From: Candidatus Aminicenantota bacterium
Lineage (GTDB): Bacteria > Acidobacteriota > Aminicenantia > UBA2199
Length of the DNA stretch: 34,898 bases
Assembly: GCA_030610885.1 (NCBI GenBank)
Contig: JAUWQW010000014.1
Coordinates: 1 to 34,898 of the forward strand
Direction of reading: 5' to 3'
In this document: one piece after another, positions 21,034-28,200 of the stretch
Layout: each line of letters begins with the position of its first letter
How positions within the stretch are numbered: position 1 is the first letter of the stretch
Position numbers and translations under genes: made by a program
The notes under the pieces: model-generated
The model's input: only the letters and a program-made list of their open reading frames with translations
Databases searched by the model: none
Told to the model about the DNA's origin: nothing

Positions 21034-22365
21034 TTAGTTTCGTTGTCTCTTTATTTGTGCTTTTTGAGTATAATCCGCAAATAAAAATTTTTGAGATACA
21101 AATGATTTCATTTCATCTTCTTTAAAAACCTTTATTCGTCCATATTCTCCGTCAAAGCCTTCCTTTATGTACACTTCTCTATTTCTCATCCTTCTGATAG
21201 CTTCCGAAAGTTCAACTCCTGCTTTTATTTCAATTTCTTTTAAGGGTAAATCAAGAAGTATTTTTAGTTCAGAGCCTACTTTTTTTATTACAGAAAAATA
21301 TAGATCATTTACTTTTTTACTATTTGGGCCTACCATTAAAATTTCAGATAGAAGCTCTTTTAATGGAATTATTGAGTTGAAAGGAAGTTGGTTTGCTCTT
21401 TTATTTATATCTTCGCGGTCTGAAAGTTTTGCAATTCGATTCATAACTCCTACAGTTACTTTTTTTCCACACTCTGAACATATCCCATTATGTTTAAGTG
21501 TTTGTACAGGGCTCCAGCAAATATTGCATTTTCTATGCCCGTCAAAAAAGTATTTACCTTCCTGCGGAAAGAGGTCAATTGTACCAAGGAAGAGTTTTGG
21601 GTTTCCTTTTTTCATTGCAAGGATAATTGAATCATAGCAAAGTTCTGTATTGAAAAGGTTTGCATTTCTCCCCAATTTTTCAGGAGAATGAGCATCAGAA
21701 TTAGAAATAAGTGTGTATTTGTCTAAAAAACCGCACATCCAGTTCATGGGTGCGTCAGTAGATAGACCTGTTTCCACAGCACTAATATGATCAGATAGAT
21801 CAGCATAACATTCCTCAATAGTATCAAATCCGGATTTACTTCCAAGAGCTGAGAACCATGGTGTCCATATATGTGCTGGAACAAAAAAATTTTTATCAGA
21901 TGCATTGATAGCTATTTCAAGCAAATCTCTTGAATCAAGACCTAAAATAGGCCTGCCATCAGATGTTATGTTACCACCTATTTTGACCAATTCATTCTGG
22001 ATCTTTTCTACTGTTTCAAAATCAGGTGCAAATATGATATTATGCACCTTACGTACCTGTCCATATCTTTTATAAATATTACTAATCTCAGAAGTAAGGA
22101 GGAATCTTATTTCCTGATCAGGAATAAATGGAGTTTCAAGGGCTTTATTTTTTTTGTATTTGTCTTTTAATTTAAAAAGTCCGGGTTCAGCAGGTTCAAG
22201 TTTTTCTTTAAGCTCTTTTGTCCATCCAGGGTGAGTAAAATCTCCAGTACCAACAACCTTAATTCCTTTAATTCTTGCCCAATAATCTAAATATTCAGGT
22301 ATAAGGTTTTTGCTTGTTGCAATAGAGAAGTGTGAATGTATGTGAAAGTCGCCTATAAATTTCAT
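21034..22365 (-). CDS. PHP-domain protein, endonuclease Q-like
   Basis: DFHIHSHFSIATSKN, SDAHSPEKLGRNAN and a zinc motif CNICWSP...CSECGKK; EndoQ-like architecture. Confidence 0.85.
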   Translation of the reverse strand: MKFIGDFHIHSHFSIATSKNLIPEYLDYWARIKGIKVVGTGDFTHPGWTKELKEKLEPAEPGLFKLKDKYKKNKALETPFIPDQEIRFLLTSEISNIYKRYGQVRKVHNIIFAPDFETVEKIQNELVKIGGNITSDGRPILGLDSRDLLEIAINASDKNFFVPAHIWTPWFSALGSKSGFDTIEECYADLSDHISAVETGLSTDAPMNWMCGFLDKYTLISNSDAHSPEKLGRNANLFNTELCYDSIILAMKKGNPKLFLGTIDLFPQEGKYFFDGHRKCNICWSPVQTLKHNGICSECGKKVTVGVMNRIAKLSDREDINKRANQLPFNSIIPLKELLSEILMVGPNSKKVNDLYFSVIKKVGSELKILLDLPLKEIEIKAGVELSEAIRRMRNREVYIKEGFDGEYGRIKVFKEDEMKSFVSQKFLFADYTQKAQIKRQRN

Positions 22366-22421: not shown

Positions 22422-22464
22422 TAAGAAAAGGGAGATTCCTGAGGTTCTTCTCACACAAAAATCT
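22422..22464. repeat. Direct repeat copy A flanking the sigma54/peptide locus
   Basis: taagaaaagggagattcctgaggttcttctcacacaaaaatct; matches 26041-26083. Confidence 0.8.
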
Positions 22465-22560
22465 TATTTATGAAAGAAATAAAATTTAATTTGACAAGTA
22501 TGTTTTAATTTGTGAAAATGTAAGCAAATTTAGTTAAGCATAAATAAATCAGGAGATTGA

Positions 22561-24015
22561 ATGCTTGAGATAATAAAGAACAAGATATGGGAGCTATTAA
22601 AAGACAAGGAAGTTTCATTAGTGATGATCTTTCACAGAGACGGAGAGATTCTGTGGCATAGAGGTAGAGAGATTAGAGGTAAGTCAATTGAAAAAGGTGA
22701 GGGTTTTTGCAAGAGTTATATAATAAAAAGTATGAAGGATTTAAAAGGAGTAGAGAAAGAAGATATATTAGTAACACTATCAGGTGAAGGTGGTTCGGAT
22801 TCAGCTGAGTATTTATCAATAAAGAGTTTATTGATATTGCCTATATTGCCTGTATTAATATTGCCTATGAAAGATGAATTTTTCCTATATATAGATAGTG
22901 GTAGTAAAGAGTTTTTTACAGAAATGGAGATAAATTCATTCAGGTTACTTGGAGGGTTGTTATGTGAGGCATTTCATTATATAAGGCAGAGGAGTGGTTC
23001 CAAGGAGATTACAGGTGAAAGTGATATAATTGAAGGTATACGAGATTTGGTATTGAAATATTCAATTGAGGATGAGCCTGTTTTATTGACAGGAGAGACA
23101 GGTTCAGGCAAGACACATATAGCTAAGTTAATTCATAATTATTCAGGTAGGAGAGGAAAATTTGTTTCAGTAAGTACACCTTCTATGCAAGAGACTCTTT
23201 TTGAGGGTACATTATTTGGTCATAAGAAGGGATCATTTACAGATGCGATAACTGATAAAAAGGGATTGGTAGAGGGAGCAGAGGAGGGTACGTTATTTTT
23301 TGATGAGATATCAGAGGTACCTATATCATGTCAGTCGAAGTTATTGAGGTTTATAGATACAAAGAGATATAGAGTGTTAGGAGAGAATAGGGAGAGAGAA
23401 GCAGATGTAAGAATTATAGCAGCGACAAACAGGGATTTATCCGAAGCAATTAAGAACAAGGATTTTAGAGAGGATTTATATTATAGGTTGAATACCTTTG
23501 AGATAGAGATACCTCCGTTGAGAGAGCGTAAAGAAGATATAAGAGAATTTGTATTGGAAAATGCAAGGTGTTTAAAGGGTAAAGTCATGGGGCAAGGTTT
23601 TTGGGAGGAATTAGAGAATTATAATTGGCCTGGAAATATAAGGGAGTTGATATCAGTGATGAAACGTGTTGGAGTGTTGAGTAAGAATCATGAATTAACA
23701 GGAGAAGATGTTAGGGCAAGTATTGCTCATTATTCATATAGAGATAAATTAAATTATAATAAAAGCAGAGAAGATAAGTTAAGCAACATATGGAAACAGA
23801 TAGAGTCTGGAAAAACATTCTGGGAAGTTGTATGGAAACCCTTTATGGACAGGAAACTTAATCAGATTGAAGTAAGGACAATAATAGATAGAACATATCA
23901 AGAGGCTAATTTAAAATTAAAAAATACAGCAAAAAATCTTGGTATACAAGAAAAAGATTATAAAAAATTTTTAATTTATTTAAAAAGACACAAAGTTTAC
24001 CCTAAAGGTAACTAA
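22561..24015 (+). CDS. Sigma54-dependent enhancer-binding regulator with GAF-like N-terminus
   Basis: TGETGSGKTH Walker A, GHKKGSFTDA (GAFTGA variant), GTLFFDEIS, RIIAATNRDL, DLYYRLNTFEIEIPPLRERKEDI; HTH_8-like C-terminus. Confidence 0.93.
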   Translation: MLEIIKNKIWELLKDKEVSLVMIFHRDGEILWHRGREIRGKSIEKGEGFCKSYIIKSMKDLKGVEKEDILVTLSGEGGSDSAEYLSIKSLLILPILPVLILPMKDEFFLYIDSGSKEFFTEMEINSFRLLGGLLCEAFHYIRQRSGSKEITGESDIIEGIRDLVLKYSIEDEPVLLTGETGSGKTHIAKLIHNYSGRRGKFVSVSTPSMQETLFEGTLFGHKKGSFTDAITDKKGLVEGAEEGTLFFDEISEVPISCQSKLLRFIDTKRYRVLGENREREADVRIIAATNRDLSEAIKNKDFREDLYYRLNTFEIEIPPLRERKEDIREFVLENARCLKGKVMGQGFWEELENYNWPGNIRELISVMKRVGVLSKNHELTGEDVRASIAHYSYRDKLNYNKSREDKLSNIWKQIESGKTFWEVVWKPFMDRKLNQIEVRTIIDRTYQEANLKLKNTAKNLGIQEKDYKKFLIYLKRHKVYPKGN

Positions 24016-24113
24016 TATGTTGGCATAGGCAACTGATTTGTTACCCTATCATTATTAGCTTATAATAAGTGTATATGGATTTTTCATTAAATAAAGGTAA
24101 CAGATATGTTACC
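24007..24113 (+). promoter_or_regulatory. Cluster of three GGYAAC-N6-GTTRSC inverted repeats (candidate upstream activator sites)
   Basis: 24007-24024 GGTAACTAATATGTTGGC; 24028-24045 GGCAACTGATTTGTTACC; 24096-24113 GGTAACAGATATGTTACC. First two are 21 bp apart. Confidence 0.75.
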
Positions 24114-24186
24114 TGTTCTCAAATTAATAAAAATCAAAAAAATCCCAAAACTCTTATTATTGCTTGCTTTTTAAATTTTATCTACT

Positions 24187-24203
24187 TTGGCATCATTCTT
24201 GCC
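24187..24203 (+). promoter_or_regulatory. Sigma54 -24/-12 promoter
   Basis: TTGGCATCATTCTTGCC; GG (24189-24190) and GC (24201-24202) separated by exactly 10 nt. Confidence 0.82.
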
Positions 24204-24308
24204 TATAGTATATTTAAGGTTAATGTTAAAAGTTTTGTGAAGAAAAGGCTTTAATGACTTTAAAAGATAAACTTTTGACATTACGTAAATTTAAAAAAGG
24301 AGGAAACA

Positions 24309-24494
24309 ATGAAAAAATTTTTAGCTGTTAGTTTACTTACGGTTATGCTAATCTTAAGTTTTAGTTTAGCACTTGAAGCACTTGGTGGGGCTATACCCAG
24401 AGAAAGTATGAGTTCGAATGGACATTGGCTTTACAACGAGCACGGTGAAAAAGTAGGGTGCAAATCCCCTGGTAGCGATTGTTTTTGGTCATAA
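24309..24494 (+). CDS. Small secreted two-cysteine peptide precursor
   Basis: MKKFLAVSLLTVMLILSFSLALEALGGAIPRESMSSNGHWLYNEHGEKVGCKSPGSDCFWS; signal peptide, RBS AAAGGAGGAAACA. Confidence 0.8.
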   Translation: MKKFLAVSLLTVMLILSFSLALEALGGAIPRESMSSNGHWLYNEHGEKVGCKSPGSDCFWS

Positions 24495-24515
24495 TATTTA
24501 AATTTGTTATAATTT

Positions 24516-24545
24516 TCAGGAAGGAGGATAATTTCTCCTTCCTGA
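24516..24545 (+). terminator. Intra-operon hairpin (attenuator or mRNA-processing/stability element)
   Basis: TCAGGAAGGAG-GATAATTT-CTCCTTCCTGA perfect 11-bp stem; no U-run, so probably partial read-through. Confidence 0.6.
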
Positions 24546-24555
24546 TCTTATTAAA

Positions 24556-25560
24556 ATGAGAAAAAAAATATATTATTTAATTTTATTTTTTACTATTTTC
24601 TTATTTTCATATTGTAATAGAAATAGTAGTTTAAGTTATAAATTAATCTCTCCTGAAATTAAATCTACAGAAACCATTTATCGTTCAGAGAATATTCCCT
24701 TTGTTTCATGTCAAGCAAGGATTAAGAATAAGATAATTGCCATTTCAAATGATATTGTGTTAATAGATTTAGATAAAAAACAAGATAGAATCATTTTTAA
24801 GAATGGGATAGGACCAGATCAAGTATATAAACCTTCTCGTTTAAGAATATATAATCAAGATATTTATATAAACTCTTTTTATCCATTAAACCATATCTTC
24901 AAAATATCGGGTATAAATGAAGAAATAAAATTAGAGCAAGTTAATTTTGGGATCAATAGTTTTGATATAGACGACCTTAAATTTATCTCTGAGGACACAT
25001 TGGTTTTGGCTAATGTCTATTGGCCAGAGCATTTAATAAAGATTTATGATTCAAAAAAGCATAGGATATTAAAAAAGATTAGGAAATCCAAAAAAGATAA
25101 GTTGATGATGAAATTTAATATAAATAAAGCTTCAATTTGTGTGGTTAAAGATAAATTATATATTATAGAGAGTATTGCACCTGAAATTATTGTCTTCTCT
25201 CTTAAAAAATATACAATGGTTGAAAAAATAGTTCTTAATCCTCCTTTTTATAAACCTCATCCAAAAAAATATAAAGTAAAAAAATATGATGATAAAAGCC
25301 ATAAACAATGGATGTCTTCATGGACTTCAATAAATAATATTTTAACTGATAAAGCATGGATTTTAATTAAGTATAAGAAAGGGTATGAACCACTATATTT
25401 TTATGAATTTATAGACTTAAAGAATAAATCTAACAGGTTATATATTCCCGAAACGTCTAGTAACATATTCGAATTTAGTATAGAAAAAGATTTAATAAAA
25501 GTCTGGGCAACAAAATTAGATGGAGAGAATATTGAATGGATAACAGAAAAATATTTGTAA
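24556..25560 (+). CDS. Lipoprotein, probable 6-bladed beta-propeller type
   Basis: Lipobox-like FSYCNRN; 334 aa beta-rich; KNGIGPDQVYKPSRLRIYNQDIYI blade-like pattern. Confidence 0.65.
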   Translation: MRKKIYYLILFFTIFLFSYCNRNSSLSYKLISPEIKSTETIYRSENIPFVSCQARIKNKIIAISNDIVLIDLDKKQDRIIFKNGIGPDQVYKPSRLRIYNQDIYINSFYPLNHIFKISGINEEIKLEQVNFGINSFDIDDLKFISEDTLVLANVYWPEHLIKIYDSKKHRILKKIRKSKKDKLMMKFNINKASICVVKDKLYIIESIAPEIIVFSLKKYTMVEKIVLNPPFYKPHPKKYKVKKYDDKSHKQWMSSWTSINNILTDKAWILIKYKKGYEPLYFYEFIDLKNKSNRLYIPETSSNIFEFSIEKDLIKVWATKLDGENIEWITEKYL

Positions 25561-25988
25561 TCCTTTTAATACTTTTATTATCATTTTGCTCAAAAAAAAA
25601 TGCCCAAAACGATTATATTCTTAAAGAATGTGACAGTGAGTTTCTTCTCTATTCAGATCCTTCAACAGATTGTTGTTCTTGTATAAAGACTGCTTTGTTA
25701 GCATTAGATAGATACTATAATAAAGATAGGCAAATATATATTCTTTTAAAGAAATCGAGTATAGTTGACAATTTTATAAGCTCTATTGAAAGCGAATTTG
25801 AACACAACAGGCTTATTTTTTTGAAAAAAGCACCCTTTTTATTAAGAGTACCACATCCATCTATCCTTTTTCTTCAAAATGGTAGAATCTATATGTATAT
25901 TTATATTACGAATGATGAATTTTTACTATCTAAAAATATTCAAAAAGTAATAAAATTACTAAATTTTTTTTATATTCAAGCAGAATAA
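25536..25988 (+). CDS. Thioredoxin-fold-like lipoprotein with CCSC motif
   Basis: LLLSFCSKK lipobox; FLLYSDPSTDCCSCIKTALLALDRYY; RVPHPSILFLQNGRI candidate cis-Pro region; overlaps upstream gene by 25 nt. Confidence 0.65.
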   Translation: MDNRKIFVILLILLLSFCSKKNAQNDYILKECDSEFLLYSDPSTDCCSCIKTALLALDRYYNKDRQIYILLKKSSIVDNFISSIESEFEHNRLIFLKKAPFLLRVPHPSILFLQNGRIYMYIYITNDEFLLSKNIQKVIKLLNFFYIQAE

Positions 25989-26040: not shown

Positions 26041-26083
26041 TAAGAAAAGGGAGATTTCTGAGGTTCTTCTCATACAAAAATCT
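26041..26083. repeat. Direct repeat copy B flanking the sigma54/peptide locus
   Basis: taagaaaagggagatttctgaggttcttctcatacaaaaatct. Confidence 0.8.
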
Positions 26084-26185
26084 CATTAGAAAAGAATTAG
26101 AAAATGAATTTACCAAGTATTCTAGTAAAATGAACGAATTAAATAAATTTCAAGAAGAATACTTGCTGTCAGAATTATAAAAGAA

Positions 26186-27291: not shown

Positions 27292-28200
27292 GGGGTCAGG
27301 TCTTGTTTTTTGCATTGTTAATTAATATGTGATAAAATTTAAATATGTCACGTCCATTAAGGATTGAATTTGAAGGTGCTTTTTATCATATTATTTCAAG
27401 AGGCAATGAGAAATCTGAAATATTTAGGGATACTAAAGATAGAAAGGATTTCCTTGGGATTATAGAACTTTTGGTTAAGCGTTATCATTGGAAAATTCAC
27501 ACTTATTGTTTAATGGATAATCATTATCATCTGTTGATAGAAACACCGTTACCTAACTTATCTACTGGAATGAGGCAATTAAACGGGATTTACACCCAGG
27601 GTTTTAATCGGAGATGGGATCGAGTAGGTCATTTATTTCAGGGTAGGTTTAAGTCATATATTGTTGAAAAGGAGAGTTATCTTTTGGAATTAAGCCGTTA
27701 TATTGTTTTGAACCCGGTACGAGCTGGTATTGTTAGAAATGTTGAGGACTGGGAGTGGTCCTCCTATAGGATTTTATCTGGAATTAAAAAGAAAAAGGAT
27801 TTTATATTTACAGATACTTTATGGTCATATTTTTCAAGCGATGTTATTGATGCCCAAAAGGAGTATAGAGATTTTGTTTATTCTGGTGCAGGGCAAGATG
27901 ATAAGTTGTTTAAATCAGCAAAAGGTGGATTTATTTTAGGTGGAGAAGGATTTGCAAAATCAATAATGCAAAAGTTGAAGACCAGAAAAATAGATGAAAT
28001 TACCAGAAAAGAGAGATATCCGGATCGTCCTGAATTAGAAAAGATATTTCATGAGAAATCTCGTGATGAGGAGGTTGATGTTGCGATTAATGAATGGGGA
28101 TATGTGTTAAAGGAGGTAGGTGATTTTGTTAATTTACATTATTCAACAGTCAGTAGGATTGCAAAAAAGATGAGTTATGCAAAAAACAAGACCTGACCCC
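27292..28200 (+). mobile_element. RAYT-type element with perfect 24-bp inverted ends
   Basis: Left GGGGTCAGGTCTTGTTTTTTGCAT (27292-27315), right ATGCAAAAAACAAGACCTGACCCC (28177-28200). Confidence 0.88.
27345..28196 (+). CDS. REP-associated tyrosine transposase (IS200-like, Y1/HUH)
   Basis: MSRPLRIEFEGAFYHIISRGNEK, MDNHYHLLIETP, GHLFQGRFKSYIVEKESYLLELSRYIVLNPVRAGIV. Confidence 0.95.
   Translation: MSRPLRIEFEGAFYHIISRGNEKSEIFRDTKDRKDFLGIIELLVKRYHWKIHTYCLMDNHYHLLIETPLPNLSTGMRQLNGIYTQGFNRRWDRVGHLFQGRFKSYIVEKESYLLELSRYIVLNPVRAGIVRNVEDWEWSSYRILSGIKKKKDFIFTDTLWSYFSSDVIDAQKEYRDFVYSGAGQDDKLFKSAKGGFILGGEGFAKSIMQKLKTRKIDEITRKERYPDRPELEKIFHEKSRDEEVDVAINEWGYVLKEVGDFVNLHYSTVSRIAKKMSYAKNKT

Follow-up and report, generated by a model that had tools for sequence, protein, structure and literature searches.

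A predicted NVEALA-like operon for an exported cysteine peptide, a propeller lipoprotein and a thioredoxin-fold lipoprotein in Candidatus Aminicenantes

Organization of the locus

The window, by which we mean the whole stretch of 34,898 nucleotides analysed here, corresponds to contig C124 in a draft genome of 2.5 Mb (a Candidatus Aminicenantes MAG, G000 below). It carries, all on the plus strand and in this order, the genes for an enhancer-binding regulator (EBP), a short exported peptide, a propeller lipoprotein and a thioredoxin-fold (Trx-like) lipoprotein, the last two overlapping by 25 bp. The original prediction had named these four open reading frames, and its coordinates proved exact. 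The features of the locus are:

22422..22468, plus strand: 47-bp direct repeat, left copy, 94% identical to 26041-26087
22561..24015, plus strand: EBP (Sigma54_activat, Pfam, 2.2e-56)
24007..24024, plus strand: UAS palindrome 1, GGTAAC-N6-GTTGGC
24028..24045, plus strand: UAS palindrome 2, GGCAAC-N6-GTTACC, exactly 21 bp past site 1
24096..24113, plus strand: UAS palindrome 3, GGTAAC-N6-GTTACC
24187..24203, plus strand: sigma54 -24/-12 promoter TTGGCATCATTCTTGCC, GG-N10-GC, from a strict pattern search
24267..24390, plus strand: 5'UTR, RBS and signal-sequence DNA, 124 bp identical to G000:C18
24309..24494, plus strand: exported precursor, 61 aa, C51 and C58 conserved, core GHWLYNEHGEKVGCKSPGSDCFWS
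24516..24545, plus strand: intercistronic hairpin, 13-bp stem, between the peptide and propeller genes
24556..25560, plus strand: predicted lipoprotein, 6-bladed beta-propeller (AlphaFold2, PDB matches, hhalign)
25536..25988, plus strand: predicted lipoprotein, thioredoxin fold, CxxC C46-C49, P106/P108 loop
26041..26087, plus strand: 47-bp direct repeat, right copy, pairing with 22422..22468

The 47-bp repeats flank the module, and a scan of three genomes of the genus placed their core pattern at these two sites only; the repeat was not found at the syntenic place in G002. Homology to a second EBP copy, on contig C47, starts at 22470, right after the left repeat. Upstream, a PHP-type frame of 443 aa (21034-22365) is devoid of a UvrD helicase domain, into which its counterpart in G002:C107 (L187) runs on. 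Downstream lies a Y1-type (IS200-like) transposase (27345-28196), and short repeats at 27808-27882 and 28109-28200 recur beside a propeller locus on G002:C108. A phage or plasmid origin of the module was considered and set aside: PHROG gave no match of note, viral contigs held no relatives, and what the window propeller matched on plasmids was attributable to chance.

The peptide and its second copy

The precursor has a hydrophobic signal, and its two cysteines lie within GCKSPGSDCFWS; searches of Pfam, NCBIfam and PHROGs gave no match. Coding conservation, on which the original prediction depended, was found: for most pairs in the window's subfamily pS of the core (0.67-1.0), close to saturating, is far above pN (0.18-0.37), the exception being one close pair (0.30 vs 0.16), and the core is, judging from these ratios, under purifying selection. 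The string ALEALGG, to which the original prediction had drawn attention, is indeed present, but the only other peptide to carry it is the second copy of this genome, and homologs from other genera do not; in an N/L-x-EAL motif comparison, LALEAL occurs in both peptides of this genome and is missing from most homologs.

The second copy, on contig C18, is identical to the window over the 124 bp of 5'UTR, RBS and signal sequence and diverges beyond them, with a different Cys core, a different redoxin and a propeller of another subfamily. A similar contrast is seen between the two paralogous loci of G009, in which none of the 18 synonymous sites of the leader differ while core, propeller and Trx gene have pS values of 0.24, 0.28 and 0.34, respectively. 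Fixed leaders next to differing cores and partners suggest that leaders are exchanged or converted as core-partner pairs change, and are what would be expected of cognate pairs. The DNA of another EBP, 93% identical, runs up to the edge of contig C47 and ends there; C47 and C18 may be the two ends of a second copy, collapsed in assembly.

The hairpin region between the peptide and propeller genes folds with -23.7 kcal/mol (z -4.06), and strong hairpins of unrelated sequence occupy the same junction in G019 (z -4.85) and at G000:C18 (z -5.07). Such a structure could be a means of making the peptide in excess over its partner.

Recurrence of the module

A peptide search of 100 relatives returned the second copy and homologs in four genomes, with a propeller gene next each time; homologs in named records are without exception Candidatus Aminicenantes MAGs. 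Searching 143 genomes of the class with a peptide HMM, which is blind to neighbouring genes (E<1e-3), added seven loci: two in G009 and one each at G012:C24, G012:C1050, G006, G005 and G038. G012:C1050 ends at a contig edge; at the other six, where flanks are readable, the peptide adjoins a propeller in every case and a Trx/redoxin gene is present in four. G045, which scored more weakly in the same search, has peptide, propeller and Trx-like gene in that order. The peptide-propeller(-thioredoxin) module is found at a minimum of 12 loci in four families of the class, beyond chance, as the original prediction of a conserved neighbourhood would have it. The full order is seen in G000 (twice), G002, G019, G021, G012, G009 (twice), G005, G038 and G045, and peptide and propeller without Trx in G044 and G047. 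Peptide genes are in tandem in G012 and G005, the two of G012 being followed by propeller and Trx in overlapping genes, and at G002:C143 a sigma54 promoter precedes a Cys peptide, a propeller and a Trx-like gene. No family peptide with readable flanks was found without a propeller.

Small frames are easily over-read, and the locus might be nothing but a functionless frame beside two unrelated lipoproteins. The excess of pS over pN in the core and the recurrence of the neighbourhood in four families contradict this explanation, to which we assign a negligible probability.

The propeller, on the other hand, can be found by itself: in G002 and G015 a window-type propeller is retained where peptide and Trx are missing. 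These peptide-less propellers fit a role in immunity or reception better than one in peptide maturation, although they do not prove it. The copy in G002 (G002:C108, L083 5984-7070) is conserved (96.7% in DNA), its peptide and Trx genes being missing. Among 76 PF17170-type propellers picked without regard to peptides, three have a Cys peptide upstream, compared with four of 204 others, these four being propellers of the window type or Trx genes linked to propellers. A general enrichment of Cys peptides ahead of PF17170 propellers was therefore rejected as not significant (p 0.39), and with a peptide ahead of so few of them the fold alone does not imply one.

The two lipoproteins

The predicted six-bladed propeller of the original prediction is supported by its AlphaFold2 model (pLDDT 86, pTM 0.84), which has six blades and whose best PDB matches are beta-propellers such as Drp35, YncE and B. 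fragilis BF0058; BtuG2 is also among the matches. The most conserved stretch, PPFYKP.PKKY...DD..H..WMS.WT (residues 229-257), forms an insertion between blades 4 and 5 of the model. The window propeller gave no direct Pfam match, PF17170 included, while the C18 paralog matches PF17170 directly (1.3e-24) and hhalign relates the window family to PF17170-type propellers with a probability of 95 (E 1.9e-8).

For the Trx-like protein, AlphaFold2 gives a b-a-b-a-b-b-a thioredoxin fold with FetE and ResA as top PDB matches (E ~2e-3, probability 1.0). The active pair C46-x-x-C49 and the Pro loop are invariant, and the cis-Pro position is present. The thioredoxin-like context proposed for the CCSC motif therefore stands, but the extra Cys of that motif is not conserved. 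Compared with the redoxins of other loci by hhalign, the window protein scores a probability of 8.5, the alignment being confined to the surroundings of CxxC. Like Campylobacter jejuni FetE and the ResA-type envelope thioredoxins, it combines a thioredoxin fold and CxxC with a lipoprotein or membrane anchor; it differs from them in sequence (~15% identity), and the FetE gene does not lie beside a peptide and a propeller.

FetE belongs to an iron-uptake cluster (PMC10783030), and propeller lipoproteins, as the BtuG2 match illustrates, can bind cofactors. The Cys peptide might accordingly carry metal, haem or electrons and be loaded or reduced by the propeller and the Trx-like protein. The spacing and number of cysteines differ among the peptides of the loci, however, and the module has no conserved metal transporter next to it, so that we consider this role improbable.

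Sigma54 control

Control by sigma54, as originally predicted, is supported by the promoter TTGGCATCATTCTTGCC, which the prediction had not mentioned, by an rpoN gene in the genome and by three palindromes of 18 bp each upstream of the promoter. The promoter, by its sequence a textbook match, sits ~105 bp 5' of the peptide start codon; in three genomes of the genus the strict pattern has 13 matches, versus none for the reversed pattern. The plan of the palindromes, with exactly 21 bp from site 1 to site 2 and another 65-80 bp to the third, is common to four loci (the window, G002:C143, G047 and G044), each with its own half-site (GGTAAC, GTTAAC, GATAAC and GTTAGG, respectively). Shuffled sequences reproduced it 24, 6, 0 and 1 times per 1000 for the four loci, and it was not found at seven other sigma54 promoters. 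The promoter of G002:C143 is 87% identical to that of the window over 116 bp, but the peptide it precedes is unrelated to that of the window and the propellers share only 18% identity.

Elsewhere in the genus, sigma54 promoters also control exported envelope proteins, and the peptide could likewise be a structural or stress peptide of the envelope, with the propeller and Trx-like proteins as assembly factors. Those promoters, however, carry a different palindrome (TGTCCT-N6-AGGACA) and no three-site array, and the diversification of peptide cores behind fixed leaders also speaks against an envelope role, which we regard as quite improbable.

The EBP contains an AAA+ domain with the L1 loop GSFTDA, which we take to be a variant of GAFTGA. 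Its N-terminal ~145 aa, presumably the sensor region, matched no family, its C-terminal region, with a conserved FWEVV.KPF...LN, matched no HTH model, and no transmembrane or periplasmic part is evident. It shares 36-38% full-length identity with the module-adjacent EBPs of G044 and G047. The idea that an EBP is a core component of the module was not borne out: it adjoins the module only in the window's genus and in G044/G047, lies ~3 kb off in G021, and its relatives in G021, G012 and G015 mostly adjoin other genes. Given these relatives and the promoters of modules outside the genus and G044/G047, which are mostly sigma70-like or not recognisable, the EBP is ruled out as a universal partner; in two genera, sigma54 control is superimposed on the module without belonging to its core.

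A signalling role is another candidate: once secreted, the peptide would act as a pheromone or sensing ligand, and the propeller would report on it as a receptor in the periplasm or at the surface. Cognate peptide-propeller pairs, tandem peptide copies and on-demand sigma54 control from an adjoining EBP would suit such a role; against it, the loci have no conserved transmembrane signal transducer or two-component partner, and the EBP itself does not appear to reach the membrane or periplasm. We hold signalling to be possible but doubtful.

A second sigma54 regulon, with the palindrome TGTCCTAAAAATAGGACA, was seen upstream of several exported proteins and lipoproteins (L150-L158, in G000, G001 and G002). 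The 5'UTR hairpin sequence, considered as a genome-wide motif, gave one match only.

Comparison with known systems

Used as a query, the C18 propeller pointed to plasmids of Phocaeicola. The annotation of Phocaeicola vulgatus pPvulCL10_1 lists NVEALA, a 6-bladed beta-propeller and a redoxin, the last two genes overlapping; the plasmid carries another NVEALA-propeller set, with a CTSC-motif gene after it. On a B. fragilis plasmid, the protein encoded next to NVEALA, on its 3' side, matches a TolB-like 6-blade model below threshold. The analogy of layout drawn in the original prediction thus holds in order and gene overlap. The exported Cys peptide is a further likeness, the propellers are homologous, and so is the redoxin of the C18 copy (C18 against the P. 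vulgatus locus: propeller 9e-14, redoxin 3e-8). Membership of the peptide in the NVEALA family, on the contrary, was rejected, as no tested peptide reached the PF14055 cut-off; none of the 143 class genomes held an NVEALA above it, while one control genome was positive. Since the layout matches and the peptides do not, these loci are NVEALA-like in build and not NVEALA members. They also differ in that the window propeller passes no Pfam model (PF17170/DUF4934 in NVEALA loci) and in the sigma54/EBP control of the window's genus.

Double-glycine and RiPP clusters (bacteriocins, GG-Bacteroidales) resemble the locus in their small precursor with fixed leader and diversifying core and in a hairpin 3' of the peptide gene. 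The window leader is instead of Sec type, no NCBIfam precursor model matched the peptide, and a RiPP reading was rejected because no modifying enzyme, peptidase or ABC exporter is common to the loci, a radical SAM gene being found near the G044 copy only. In the open-access literature searched, no paper was found that names NVEALA or DUF5128, and no function for such loci.

Proposed mechanism

Computation supports the gene order, the conservation of coding sequence, the folds as predicted, the promoter and the palindromes, whereas peptide excess, a disulfide, binding and a biological role are inferred. The EBP, on a cytoplasmic cue, would bind the three upstream palindromes and activate the sigma54 promoter, giving a transcript that begins with the small peptide gene and whose intercistronic hairpin would keep peptide output above that of the partner proteins. 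The peptide would be exported by its Sec signal, its two cysteines forming a loop made or checked by the Trx-like lipoprotein, and the propeller lipoprotein would bind its own peptide at the cell envelope. An NVEALA-like exported disulfide-peptide operon with Trx handling and a cognate propeller, for immunity or as a receptor, is a reading to which we give about an even chance. Its likeliest role would be that of a secreted antagonistic or kin-recognition peptide; the loci have no conserved exporter, protease or killing gene in common, so the case for antagonism comes from the evolutionary pattern alone. The missing Trx of G044 and G047 and the non-canonical lipoboxes of the propeller and Trx-like protein (Y or F ahead of Cys) count against this reading, whose data are from MAGs and whose peptides are short.

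NVEALA-propeller-redoxin loci were already annotated on plasmids of gut Bacteroidota; new here is that a phylum far removed from them has an NVEALA-like layout, whose peptides differ and which has a clear sigma54 switch. This sets the core (peptide, propeller, thiol protein) apart from accessory parts. As the gene order is that of the Bacteroidota loci, the Aminicenantes operon may reveal the role of this type of peptide. More tentatively, we suggest a cross-phylum class of secreted disulfide peptides, each with its own propeller lipoprotein (immunity or receptor) and thiol oxidoreductase. Recombination would keep their leaders uniform, core and propeller would change in concert, and every Aminicenantes locus would have an EBP/palindrome code of its own. 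The finding of this layout in Aminicenantes also predicts cognate peptide-propeller pairs, among them those of Bacteroidota, which can be grown in the laboratory.

Other peptide clusters in relatives

In G047 (L023 2330-9500) and G044 (L024, L110, L112), clusters combine several sigma54-promoted Cys peptides with propellers; they also hold an exported Cys-rich protein of 231 aa, and a conserved 5'UTR hairpin lies 3' of their promoters. At G021:C588 (L177 9520-9879) we observed a leader of class I lanthipeptide type (NF038153, 6.7e-9) with a core that contains Cys.
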